A stretch of DNA of 64,000 bases from the NCBI RefSeq assembly GCF_014644495.1, contig NZ_BMKU01000007.1, forward strand, positions 62,001 through 126,000, read 5' to 3'. Both the position numbers and the translations under genes were made by a program. The DNA comes from Pseudarthrobacter polychromogenes (lineage in GTDB: Bacteria; Actinomycetota; Actinomycetes; Actinomycetales; Micrococcaceae). Below the pieces are notes generated by a model. It saw only the letters and a program-made list of their open reading frames with translations. It did no database searches and had not been told where the DNA came from. Shown here piece by piece: positions 60,412-64,000 of the stretch. Every line of letters starts with the position of its first letter. Positions within the stretch are counted from its first letter, which is position 1.

Positions 60412-60447
60412 CTTTCGTTGAATAGGGATTTGACCGCCCAGAAAAAA

Positions 60448-60484
60448 GTTGTTGAACAATACCTTGCGCCGATTGTTCAACAAC
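60448..60484. promoter_or_regulatory. Double FCD/GntR operator upstream of the NRAMP-like gene
   Basis: GTTGTTGAACAAT (60448-60460) and ATTGTTCAACAAC (60472-60484) are perfect inverse copies 24 bp apart. Each is itself a TTGTT-N-AACAA palindrome, the TTGT-N-ACAA style of FCD-type GntR regulators. TTGCGC (60464) and TAATGT (60488) between and after them form a plausible promoter with an 18-bp spacer, so binding would block it. The likely regulator is the FCD protein encoded at 62653-63351. Confidence 0.75.
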
Positions 60485-60544
60485 CTGTAATGTCAGTCGG
60501 GACGACCACTGTGACTCCAGTCACCCTTAATATTGGACGGACCC

Positions 60545-61762
60545 ATGGCAGAAACCAGCACAAAACTGAACCTGAGCTCCTCGGCTCGGCGCACGGCCCT
60601 CCTGGGAGCCATGTTCCTGATGGCCACCAGTGCCATCGGGCCCGGCTTCATCACCCAGACCACGGTCTTCACCGCCCAGATTGGCGCAGCCTTCGCTTTC
60701 GCCATCCTCGCGTCGATCCTCATCGACATCGCAGTCCAGATGAACGTCTGGCGCGTTATCGGCGTTTCGGGGCTGCGCGCGCAGGAGCTCGGCAACAAGG
60801 TGATTCCCGGCGTCGGGTGGTTCCTGGCCGGCCTGGTCTTCCTTGGCGGCGTCGTCTTCAACATCGGCAACATTGCCGGAACCGGACTCGGAGCCAATGC
60901 CATGCTCGGCGTTGATCCCAAGATCGGCGGCGCCGTTTCCGCGCTCGTCGCCATCCTGATCTTCCTGAGCAAGAAGGCAGGGATGGCGCTGGACCGGATC
61001 GTGGTGCTCCTGGGCGCCGTGATGATCCTGCTGATGATCTACGTGGCCATCGTTGCCGCCCCGCCCGTCGGCGAGGCCCTTAAGAACACCTTCCTGCCGG
61101 AGACGGTGGACTTCCTGATCATCACCACGCTCGTTGGTGGAACCGTGGGCGGCTATATCACCTACGCCGGCGCGCACCGGATGCTGGATTCCGGGGCCAC
61201 GGGCATTGAACATGTCAGGGAGATCACCCGCAGCTCGGTTCTGGGCATTATCGTCACGGGCATCATGCGCGTCCTGTTGTTCCTGGCCATCCTCGGGGTG
61301 GTGGCCGGCGGCACGGTGCTCACCAGCAACAACATGGCTGCGGAAGCCTTCGGTGCAGCTGCAGGCGAGATCGGCACCCGCATGTTCGGCATCGTGCTCT
61401 GGGCCGCCGCCGTCACATCGGTCATCGGAGCCGCCTTCACCTCTGTTTCCTTCATCACCTCGTCCCGGACTCCCGAACGTAAGCGCAACCTCATCACTGT
61501 CGTTTTCATCGCAGGCTGCGCCACGGCCTACCTGTTCCTTGGCCAGGCCCCGCAGCAGCTGCTGATCTTCGCCGGTGCCTTCAACGGGCTGATCCTCCCG
61601 GTGGGCTTCGGGATCCTCCTCTGGGTTGCCTGGCGGCGCCGCGACCTCATGCACGGTTACGCCTACCCCAAATGGCTTCTGATTGTCGGCGTCCTCACCT
61701 GGCTGCTCACGCTGTTCCTTGGCTGGAACTCCGTGCTGGGCCTGGCGAAGCTGTGGTCATGA
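60545..61762 (+). CDS. NRAMP-related transporter (YcsG-like)
   Basis: A 405-aa membrane protein with about 11 helices. The first helix reads [16 protein letters not shown] where true Nramp proteins have DPGN. The helix-6 region is [10 protein letters not shown] where MPH is usual, so the classical Asp, Asn and Met metal ligands are absent. The overall fold and the pairing with a DUF1445 gene match YcsG of the ycs/kip/pxp loci, where 5-oxoproline or a related solute is a better guess than a divalent metal. The ATG at 60545 is used; it overlaps the next gene by 4 bp. The double operator lies upstream. Confidence 0.82.
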
Positions 61763-62544
61763 CCAGCCGCGCGTCCATCCTCCCCGCAGAAGCCCGCGCC
61801 GCTTTCCGAGCCGGACTCGTGGAGCCGACCTCGGGCTGGTCCCGCGGCTACGCGCAGGCCAACGTCCTGTCGATTTCGCGGGAGCATGCCTTCGACCTGA
61901 TGCTGTTCGCCCAGCGCAACCCCAAGCCGTGCCCCATCCTGGGCATCCTCGAACCGGGCCACACCACCGGGCCGCTGCTGGCCGGCGGGGACATCCGCAC
62001 GGACGTCCCCAAGTACACCGTCTACAGGAACGGCGAAAAAGTGGACGAGCCCACGGATATCACCGGCTACTGGCAGGACGACCTTGTGACGTTCCTGATC
62101 GGCTGCTCCTTCACTTTCGAGGCAGCCCTGCAGGACGGGGGCATCCGGATCGCGCATATCGACCAGGGCGTGAACGTGCCCATGTACCGGACCAACCGGG
62201 CATGTGACCCGGCAGGGTCAATGTCCGGTCCGATGGTGGTTTCCATGCGCCCGGTACCGGCCTCGCAGGTTGCGGACGCCGTCCGCATCACCTCGCGGTA
62301 CCCTGCCGTGCACGGCGCCCCGGTCCACGTGGGCAACCCGGGGGAGCTGGGCATCGCCGATCTGGGCCGGCCCGATTTCGGCGACGCCGTGGAGATCCCG
62401 GCCGGCCACATCCCGGTGTTTTGGGCCTGCGGAGTGACGCCGCAGGCGGCCGTGATGCAGTCGCGGCCCCCGCTGGCCATCGGCCATGCGCCCGGCCACA
62501 TGCTGATCACGGACGCCCGGGACAGCGACTACCTGGTGCCGTAG
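61759..62544 (+). CDS. Putative hydro-lyase, DUF1445 (YcsI family)
   Basis: A 261-aa protein. [73 protein letters not shown] and [13 protein letters not shown] are the DUF1445 signature, with conserved Cys residues. The family is annotated as D-glutamate cyclase-like or hydro-lyase. That would supply 5-oxoproline-type substrates, though the assignment here rests on family only. It starts within the NRAMP-like stop codon (ATGA). Confidence 0.9.
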
Positions 62545-62597
62545 GCGCCGCTTATAACAACGTGTGCCGTAGGCGCCCAAGGACAACTTAGAGAACA

Positions 62598-62633
62598 AAA
62601 TGTGGGGCAGGAGGAGTCTCCTGCCCCACATTT
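62598..62633. terminator. Perfect 16-bp bidirectional terminator
   Basis: AAATGTGGGGCAGGAG and CTCCTGCCCCACATTT close a GAGT loop between the convergent DUF1445 and GntR genes. A-rich and T-rich flanks suit termination on both strands. Confidence 0.9.
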
Positions 62634-62652
62634 GTATGTTTCGGCTGCGTGC

Positions 62653-63351
62653 CTATCCGGCGCGCTGTCGCATACCGGACCGGCGGTCCTGCTCCGCGCC
62701 CAGGTGCACCAGCAGCTCCGCCTCGGCCTCGTCCAGGTAGGCGCGCAGTCCCTCTGCAGCCTCCTGGCGTTCGCCGGCGCGCAGGCGCTTCACCAGTGCC
62801 ACGTTGCGGTCCACGTAGTGGCTGTGGAAGTCCGGTGCCGAAGCCATGGAGTGGAACACCAGCCGCATTTCGGCCAGCACCCGGTCCATGAGCTCCTGCA
62901 GCGACGCGCTGCCGGTCAGGGCAACCACGGCCCCGTGCAGTGCCTGGTTGGCATCGGCCATGGCGGGCACGGATCCGCTGTCCCGGGCCTGCTGCGCCCG
63001 CTGCACAATGGTTTCCAGTCCCTCCAGCACCTGGGGCGTCAGCTCGCCCCACAGGACGGCAGCAGGCTCAATCATCCGCCGCACGCGGTAGATTTCGCGA
63101 ACTTCGTCGACGCCGGGTGAGGCCACAAAGACGCCGCGGTTTGGTATGCGCGTCACAATGGATTCGCTGACGAGCGTGGTGAACGCCTGGCGCAGGGTGT
63201 TGCGTGAAACGCCGAGTGCTGCGCACAGCGGCTCCTCGGACAGCTTGGAGCCCGGGGTCAGTTCACCCGCGGCGATGCGGGTGCGCAGCACCGACGCGAT
63301 CCAGGCCGTGGTGTGTGCGTGTTCGGCTGTACCGTCTGCCGGAGTGTTCAT
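62653..63351 (-). CDS. GntR family regulator with FCD domain
   Basis: A 232-aa regulator. The winged helix is residues 14-75 (IAAGELTPGSKLSEEPLCAALGVSRNTLRQAFTTLVSE). The helical FCD ligand domain follows with EVREIYRVRRMIEPAAV and ANQALHGAVVAL, carrying the Asp/His metal-ligand pattern. FCD members sense small carboxylates. It probably binds the TTGTTGAACAA sites upstream of the NRAMP-like gene. It is 32 bp downstream of the biotin carboxylase gene on the same strand, so it is likely the last gene of that operon. Confidence 0.92.
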   Translation of the reverse strand: MNTPADGTAEHAHTTAWIASVLRTRIAAGELTPGSKLSEEPLCAALGVSRNTLRQAFTTLVSESIVTRIPNRGVFVASPGVDEVREIYRVRRMIEPAAVLWGELTPQVLEGLETIVQRAQQARDSGSVPAMADANQALHGAVVALTGSASLQELMDRVLAEMRLVFHSMASAPDFHSHYVDRNVALVKRLRAGERQEAAEGLRAYLDEAEAELLVHLGAEQDRRSGMRQRAG

Positions 63352-63383
63352 TGCTTTCCCCCATTCCCGTTCGACTAACGATG

Positions 63384-64000
63384 CTAGCCGACAGTACCCA
63401 GCACCTCGCCGCGGGCCACGGCGGCGCCCGGTTCCTGGCCGCCGCGCCGGAAGGTTCCGGTGGCAGAGGCAACCACCACGGTTTCCATCTTCATGGCCTC
63501 CAAAACGGCAACAGGCTCCCCGGCACCAACCCCGGCGCCGTCACCGGCCACCCACTTGACCAGGTTCCCGCCCATGGGGGCGGTGACCTCGCCGTCCGCG
63601 TCGGCGCTCTCCGTGCCTGCAGAAGGTTCGACGGCGGCCCCTCCGCCGTGGAGCAGGGCGTGGAATACCTTTGCGGGCAGACCGAGCTGGACGGCCTTCC
63701 CGTCGATTTCGACAGTCAGGGTTTCGCGCCGGGCCAGGGGGCCCTGGGCGCCGGTCTGCAGGGAGGCGGCCAGACGGCCGGCGAACTCCGTTTCAATCCA
63801 GGTGGTGAACACGCCCAGCCGGTCCGGCGCGGTGAAGTCGGGATCCCGCACCACGGCGCGGTGGAACGGAAGAACGGTGGGGACGCCCTCGATCCGCAGC
63901 TCGTCCAGGGCGGCACGTGCGCGGCGCAGGGCCTGCTGGCGGTCCTCGCCGTGGACGATCAGCTTGGCCATCAGGGAGTCGTATTCGGCAGGAATGACGG
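63384..64000 (-). CDS. Biotin carboxylase/biotin carboxyl-carrier fusion, C-terminal end (partial)
   Basis: About 205 C-terminal residues are visible; the gene runs off the right edge. The first residues in the window (PAEYDSLMAKLIVHGEDRQ) are the end of a biotin carboxylase domain. The last 80 residues are a biotinyl domain with biotin-accepting Lys in VLEAMKMETV. Such fusions form acyl-CoA carboxylase alpha subunits, but with the GntR, DUF1445 and NRAMP-like genes the accessory biotin carboxylase of 5-oxoprolinase-type loci is also possible. Confidence 0.88.
   Translation of the reverse strand, partial: VIPAEYDSLMAKLIVHGEDRQQALRRARAALDELRIEGVPTVLPFHRAVVRDPDFTAPDRLGVFTTWIETEFAGRLAASLQTGAQGPLARRETLTVEIDGKAVQLGLPAKVFHALLHGGGAAVEPSAGTESADADGEVTAPMGGNLVKWVAGDGAGVGAGEPVAVLEAMKMETVVVASATGTFRRGGQEPGAAVARGEVLGTVG

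Follow-up and report, generated by a model that had tools for sequence, protein, structure and literature searches.

What does a transporter carry that keeps the fold of the NRAMP metal importers and has lost their metal ligands? The question is raised by a gene near the right end of a 64,000-nt stretch of DNA from Pseudarthrobacter polychromogenes (contig NZ_BMKU01000007.1, positions 62,001 to 126,000), here called the window, the numbering of which is used throughout and, where stated, continued past its right edge. An initial annotation had noticed a DUF1445 gene, an FCD regulator and the end of a biotin carboxylase gene next to it, and had suggested an importer of 5-oxoproline or a similar carboxylate, with pxpA and pxpB/pxpC genes lying beyond the edge. 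On extending the sequence these genes were found there, and judged by sequence comparison the transporter is likely to be the uptake component (PxpT/YcsG type), a 5-oxoproline (pyroglutamate) importer, of a PxpR-type regulon. This reading is supported because the protein is orthologous to PxpT of Corynebacterium glutamicum and both loci have the PxpR operator core in common. The features that carry it are the following:

60545..61762, plus strand: pxpT/ycsG-type gene for an NRAMP-related transporter, predicted 5-oxoproline importer; 405 amino acids; Pfam Nramp; 62% identical to C. glutamicum PxpT
60446..60462, no strand: PxpR-type operator 1 (AAGTTGTTGAACAATAC), core 60449-60459, starting 96 bp before the transporter start
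60470..60486, no strand: PxpR-type operator 2 (CGATTGTTCAACAACCT), core 60473-60483, starting 72 bp before the transporter start
67611-67621 (continued numbering), no strand: third operator core, before pxpA; core match

The window protein adds one more member to the recently described PxpT/YcsG transporters, and the genes that surround it form a set that has been less studied. Its family carries two published assignments which look incompatible, Mn2+ in Bacillus and Acinetobacter and 5-oxoproline in Corynebacterium and Bacillus.

The transporter and its helix breaks

The open reading frame (ORF) of the transporter runs from an ATG at 60545 to a stop codon at 61760-61762. Its product matches the Pfam family Nramp with an E value of 2.7e-24 and scores 21.3 bits with the NCBIfam model Nramp_1, below the cut-off of 50. 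An AlphaFold2 model computed from 71 sequences (mean predicted local distance difference test 86.3, predicted template modelling score 0.85) has helix 1 broken at residues 30-32 and helix 6 at residue 200, where NRAMPs are unwound. The fold named in the initial annotation holds. A search of the PDB by sequence gave no useful match; YcsG and the Nramps came up only when folds were compared. The nearest entry is YcsG (MntG) of Bacillus subtilis (9a52, an integrative model; Z 56.3, root mean square deviation 2.6, 394 residues, 48% identity), a likeness which refers to fold and overall identity. DraNramp (6c3i; Z 41.8, deviation 2.7, 376 residues, 15% identity) and the magnesium transporter EleNRMT (7qji; Z 40.4, deviation 2.6, 372 residues, 20% identity) follow.

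Canonical Nramp/MntH proteins such as DraNramp and ScaDMT are thus alike in fold at about 15% identity, but their DPGN and MPH ligands are missing here. In a MAFFT alignment, in which motif positions were matched with the help of one canonical DPGN/MPH sequence (L027), G32-P33-G34-F35 stands in helix 1 at the position of D-P-G-N and G202-G203-Y204 in helix 6 at that of M-P-H; the initial annotation had already noted GPGF for DPGN and a missing MPH. We aligned 126 sequences, namely the window protein, 40 from its own family, 80 from named actinobacterial loci and five from a plasmid collection (Proteobacteria, Lactiplantibacillus), some genomes being represented twice. The canonical ligands are absent in 126 of 126, and G32, P33, G34, F35, Q38, T39, G202, G203, Y204, H211 and R212 are invariant. 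Because of this invariance the GPGF/GGY motif is no accident of a single sequence; the missing ligands are a property of the whole sample and not of one odd member. As for acidic residues, transmembrane helix (TM) 1 (taken as residues 12-50), TM3 and TM10 have none, and in TM6 they are confined to the two ends (D189 and D215); D61 comes next in TM2, and TM8 contains E267 and E275.

The predicted LeuT/NRAMP fold is kept; the metal site may have turned into a neutral one at the two helix breaks, made of G-P-G-F in TM1 and G-G-T-x-G-G-Y in TM6. A small cyclic carboxylate could be held there by backbone amides together with conserved hydroxyls and amides, with Q38, T39, N106, N109, T195, T200, Y204 and S292 as candidate binding residues. 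In APC transporters, Gly-x-Gly in TM1 has a carboxylate-binding role. A site for a coupling ion at T291-S292 in TM8 was also considered, as speculation.

The NRMT magnesium transporters are NRAMP-related and alike in fold, and are reported to have the motifs DxxG in TM1 and TxxA/T in TM6 (PMC8806188). They keep the TM1 aspartate, whereas the window protein has G32 in its place and so lacks the DxxG signature. A 2026 preprint, which divides the Nramp-related proteins into groups, places MntG in 'G-motif 3' and regards all remaining groups, apart from the NRMT-like one, as entirely uncharacterized (PMC12873925).

Of 295 genomes sampled from its own bacterial family, 169 contain a match to the transporter, in some cases a weak one. 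Among named relatives Arthrobacter sp. AK04 is the closest, its transporter being 100% and its other genes 92-99% identical. Across the phylum, 296 sampled genomes gave 14 with a match, not counting the own genome; identity was 23-38% throughout. Helix 1 reads GPGT in nine, GPGS in two and DPGN in one of the 12 that are readable, L022 (internal stop) and L028 (fragment) having been left out. The 14 were set aside as members of other Nramp groups rather than orthologues. One locus (L115 8685-11215) has the transporter gene twice in tandem, the products sharing 74% and 78% identity with the window protein.

Operators and the pxp locus

The PxpR site published for C. glutamicum is agattgttcaacaatct (PMC13274462), and the sequences printed in that paper served to locate the C. 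glutamicum locus. Searching for the core TTGTTSAACAA, we found five copies in the own genome (G000; 4.35 Mb), where 0.17-0.41 would be expected from the window composition; a reversed control pattern gave one. Three of the five belong to the pxp locus, two before the transporter and one before pxpA. Of the other two (G000:C2:121648 and G000:C5:32820), one adjoins an ORF which by eye resembles folD and one is on another contig; neither could be linked to the pathway, and both are regarded as chance occurrences.

The same core was then counted in 122 unique loci of together 2.35 Mb (128 given, six duplicates dropped). All but two of 184 copies stand no more than about 420 bp ahead of the transporter (129) or of pxpA/pxpB (53), and the bases flanking these 182 lean to the AGA...TCT of the published PxpR site. 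The core precedes the transporter in 93 of the 121 loci which have at least 350 bp of upstream DNA, and the pair at a spacing of about 24 bp recurs in other loci. Seven genomes, those without pxpA in the fetched transporter stretch, were followed further; in five of them (G388, G311, G342, G435 and G366), where pxpA lies 12-47 kb from the transporter or on another contig, the core precedes both genes. By coordinates, 26 of 34 core copies in 11 genomes stand before one of these two genes. As far as operator sequences can tell, the transporter gene is in Actinobacteria mostly tied to pxpA by a common operator. G388 has nine core copies, six of them away from both genes, which may reflect a wider regulon or chance.

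The remaining parts of the locus are:

61759..62544, plus strand: DUF1445 / D-glutamate cyclase family gene; PF07286, E 3.7e-67 (scanned from 61768)
62599..62632, no strand: hairpin where the convergent operons meet, probably a terminator for both; minimum free energy -33.9 kcal/mol for 62585-62650, z -5.49
62653..63351, minus strand: GntR/FCD regulator, PxpR-like; PF00392 and PF07729; 39% identical to C. glutamicum PxpR
63384..64000, minus strand: 3' part of a gene for biotin carboxylase with biotin carboxyl carrier protein (BCCP); the whole gene, 579 amino acids, runs to 65123 past the edge
65120-66802 (continued numbering), minus strand: fused pxpBC; PF02682 and PF02626 (CT_C_D and CT_A_B), 560 amino acids
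66799-67557 (continued numbering), minus strand: pxpA; PF03746 (LamB/YcsF), E 3.9e-99, 252 amino acids

The neighbours named in the initial annotation were thus confirmed by Pfam, and pxpA and the fused pxpBC lie 1.1-3.6 kb past the right window edge (stretch L004, the coordinates of which plus 60000 give the continued numbering). Read from left to right, the operators are followed by the transporter, DUF1445 and the hairpin, and then, reversed, by the regulator, the carboxylase, pxpBC and pxpA with its operator. The regulator and carboxylase genes on the minus strand are hence convergent with the transporter. A possible start codon of the DUF1445 gene, ATG at 61759, overlaps the transporter stop by four bases (ATGA); DUF1445 is the family which Pfam now calls 'D-glutamate cyclase' (PF07286). 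The genes pxpA, pxpBC and carboxylase also overlap by four bases each, and the regulator gene comes 32 bases further on. PxpA, PxpB and PxpC are all encoded in one operon, PxpB and PxpC as a single ORF. The regulator is 39% identical to PxpR over 204 residues, and would repress both operons at the three palindromic operator copies until 5-oxoproline binds. Fused PxpBC and PxpA would then open 5-oxo-L-proline to glutamate with ATP, and the DUF1445 protein may, going by its family name, handle the D-isomer or the cyclase side.

Among the 122 loci, pxpA and/or pxpB with pxpC are present in the fetched stretch of 105 and a DUF1445 match, partial in some, in 99; some of the loci without them are cut by contig ends. 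Two architectures recur. One has fused pxpBC and biotin carboxylase as here; in the other the regulator diverges from transporter-pxpA-pxpB-pxpC-DUF1445 and a carboxylase is missing. Plasmid loci of Rhizobium and Kluyvera have the same gene set and a GntR regulator.

How does this locus compare with named systems? C. glutamicum PxpT (cg1142) is 62% identical over 405 aligned positions, with the same TM1/TM6 core, and its locus has in common with ours the pxpABC neighbours, a GntR/FCD regulator and the operator core. It differs in that pxpT-A-B-C run in one direction, divergent from pxpR, with pxpB and pxpC split, whereas the window locus has two convergent operons and fused pxpBC. Moreover, no biotin carboxylase was detected in the 11.5-kb C. 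glutamicum stretch, while a dedicated biotin carboxylase-BCCP is present here. YcsG belongs to the B. subtilis pxp operon, for which other regulators, KipR, TnrA, MntR, AhrC and CcpA, are reported and in the available text of the paper no biotin carboxylase is mentioned (PMC10448178).

A third comparison leads to Acinetobacter baumannii. A 4.1-Mb record of this species in the plasmid collection has in a row (L178 7696-15202) a LysR-like ORF, assigned by eye, the transporter, PxpA, DUF1445, fused PxpBC and carboxylase-BCCP. The transporter is 52% identical to the window protein. By order and kind of its genes, rather than by the published strain, we infer that this locus is the mum operon mumRTLUHC and its transporter MumT (PMC5050338). 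The mum operon thus appears to have the same gene set as the window's 5-oxoproline locus; it differs by the LysR-like regulator, the arrangement in one operon and the lack of an operator core before the transporter. It has been described as an operon of manganese and urea metabolism (PMC5050338). Ogura et al. remarked on the similar operon structure and, in the available text, retained the urea reading (PMC10448178). An interpretation of mum as a pxp operon was not found in the literature, by titles and the starts of abstracts, among the matches listed.

Candidate substrates

Published support for 5-oxoproline comes from C. glutamicum, where deletion of pxpT and complementation from a plasmid are reported to show that PxpT is needed for growth on 5-oxoproline; its authors leave metal transport possible (PMC13274462). 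Several observations weigh against the same function for the window protein. A direct uptake assay for any PxpT/YcsG family member was not found in the available text of the literature. YcsG has been published as a manganese importer, unlike our reading; overexpression of ycsG is reported to raise manganese in B. subtilis, and MntR to bind the pxpA promoter (PMC10448178). Furthermore, induction of mntG restores growth of an efp mutant without added manganese, relieving a manganese-linked defect (PMC13055313), and deletion of mumT lowers the manganese content of A. baumannii cells, an effect complemented in trans (PMC5050338). YcsG/MntG and MumT are probably orthologous to our transporter, and the A. 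baumannii protein of L178 has the same helix-1 and helix-6 core. The distribution and the operators give further reason for caution. In the own genus the transporter is patchy, since a strong match (E below 1e-200) occurs in only five of 24 sampled genomes including the own one, with one more being weak. The exact core is missing before the transporter in 28 of the 121 loci, among them all six non-actinobacterial ones. In G305 and G307 it precedes neither transporter nor pxpA, G307 having zero copies, and eight of the 34 copies in the 11 genomes stand at neither gene (six in G388, two in G305).

The alternative that survives best, although we regard it as rather unlikely, is that the protein in fact takes up a compound closely related to 5-oxoproline, be it 5-oxo-D-proline, a different lactam or some other small carboxylate. 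The overlap of the transporter gene with a gene of the D-glutamate cyclase family, and the frequency of DUF1445 among the loci, point in this direction, as does a mammalian protein with a DUF1445 domain reported to make 5-oxo-D-proline from D-glutamate. However, because that protein has a second domain, DUF4392, its activity is not assignable to DUF1445 alone (PMC5339696). In addition, PxpR is reported to bind 5-oxo-L-proline with a dissociation constant of 726 nM and C. glutamicum to grow on 5-oxo-L-proline (PMC13274462), and the 11.5-kb stretch around its pxpT holds no detected DUF1445 gene.

An import of Mn2+ through a non-canonical site, supplying metal to the pathway enzymes as in the MumT/MntG reading, is improbable. 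It would account for the manganese phenotypes of ycsG/mntG and mumT given above, and the identity of the A. baumannii protein to ours speaks for it. So does the lack of another obvious route of this family: no canonical MntH was found in the genome, because the only other Nramp-family protein detected (L012, G000:C5:83851-84915), with ATGVGAADM in TM1 and GGVGGTITLAAYG in TM6, is likewise without DPGN and MPH. Against it, the known ligands are absent throughout the family alignment. Across SLC11 proteins the TM1 aspartate is reported to be universally conserved, and even EleNRMT, which carries Mg, is strongly impaired in transport when this residue is mutated (PMC8806188). The regulation of the transporter gene would track pxpA via the PxpR-type site, and the C. 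glutamicum pxpT deletion is reported to grow like the wild type on glucose but not on 5-oxoproline, the two media tested (PMC13274462). Finally, two ZnuA-type metal-binding proteins represent other metal uptake routes in the genome. The view of the initial annotation that metal transport is unlikely is based on the sequence, and the published manganese genetics of the probable orthologues YcsG/MntG and MumT points the other way.

Equally improbable is an import of 5-oxoproline together with, or complexed to, a divalent cation. This would account for the two kinds of phenotype published for family members and would fit the common core of the A. baumannii and C. glutamicum proteins, but the helix breaks offer neither acidic nor soft side chains, and a test of co-import was not found in the literature, among the matches listed. 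Metal-carboxylate symport is known in other families (CitMHS, metal-citrate).

We judge 5-oxoproline import to be the most likely function and metal import, be it of metal alone or with the substrate, to be less likely. Since the ligands are absent in all sequences sampled, the operator in Actinobacteria mostly ties the transporter to pxpA and mum appears to have the same gene set, the question of Mn2+ versus 5-oxoproline can be put to the test on a single purified protein.

Fused PxpBC and the biotin carboxylase

PxpBC probably works together with the biotin carboxylase-BCCP. Of the 102 loci having both pxpB and pxpC, 69 give a biotin carboxylase match, and in 64 of these the two genes are fused; among the other 33 the fusion occurs in three. 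Due to shared ancestry of the loci these counts are not independent. The five loci with a carboxylase and split pxpB/pxpC are L058, L114, L126, L157 and L180, and the splits in L058 and L114 may be sequence errors. Among the 69 carboxylases that align over 400 residues or more, 66 carry a biotinyl motif EAMKME, EAMKTE or ESMKTE, the exceptions being EVMKTE in L095, undetermined bases in L114 and a carrier annotated as a separate gene in L180. In the PDB, entry 9yx5 combines AccA3, the best PDB match of our carboxylase, with 'allophanate hydrolase' subunits 1 and 2, which are among the best matches of PxpB and PxpC. This composition, from which alone the entry is known, hints at a biotin-dependent complex; a paper describing it was not found in one literature search.

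It is conceivable, though doubtful, that a biotin-dependent branch of the pathway exists, in which the carboxylase-BCCP would charge biotin, fused PxpBC would act as carboxyltransferase (CT) on the lactam, as in urea carboxylase, PxpA would open the carboxylated ring and the NRAMP-fold protein would import the substrate, with A. baumannii mum being the same system under another name. Against a necessary role of biotin, L061 and L122 keep fused pxpBC, pxpA, transporter and operator cores and have no detected carboxylase; these two offer a natural test of the need for it. C. glutamicum, too, grows on 5-oxoproline without a linked carboxylase, and phosphorylation by PxpBC is what the literature assumes (PMC13274462). 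The link of fused PxpBC to a dedicated biotin carboxylase raises a separate mechanistic question on a widespread enzyme.

An allophanate hydrolase (amidase), the partner expected with a urea carboxylase, gave no match at E <= 0.001 among the ten ORFs of L004 (49 listed) and the four window ORFs given to Pfam. The match to KlUA is weak (E 0.059) and begins at KlUA residue 1609 and query residue 147; by these table values alone and ungapped, K1605, the catalytic lysine of the KlUA CT domain (PMC5770610), would fall on R143.

Two more pxpA genes came to light (L006 9733-12264 and L005 10317-11180). One is accompanied by separate pxpB and pxpC genes next to an ABC transporter, without a carboxylase match, and the other has no CT domain among the ten ORFs scanned around it; the substrates of these two systems may be other lactams. 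At the present locus, the DNA 5' of pxpA on the same strand (L004 7769-13723) encodes a thiamine pyrophosphate enzyme, an amino acid permease, a glutaminase and a PucR-type regulator, thus a glutamine/glutamate neighbourhood.

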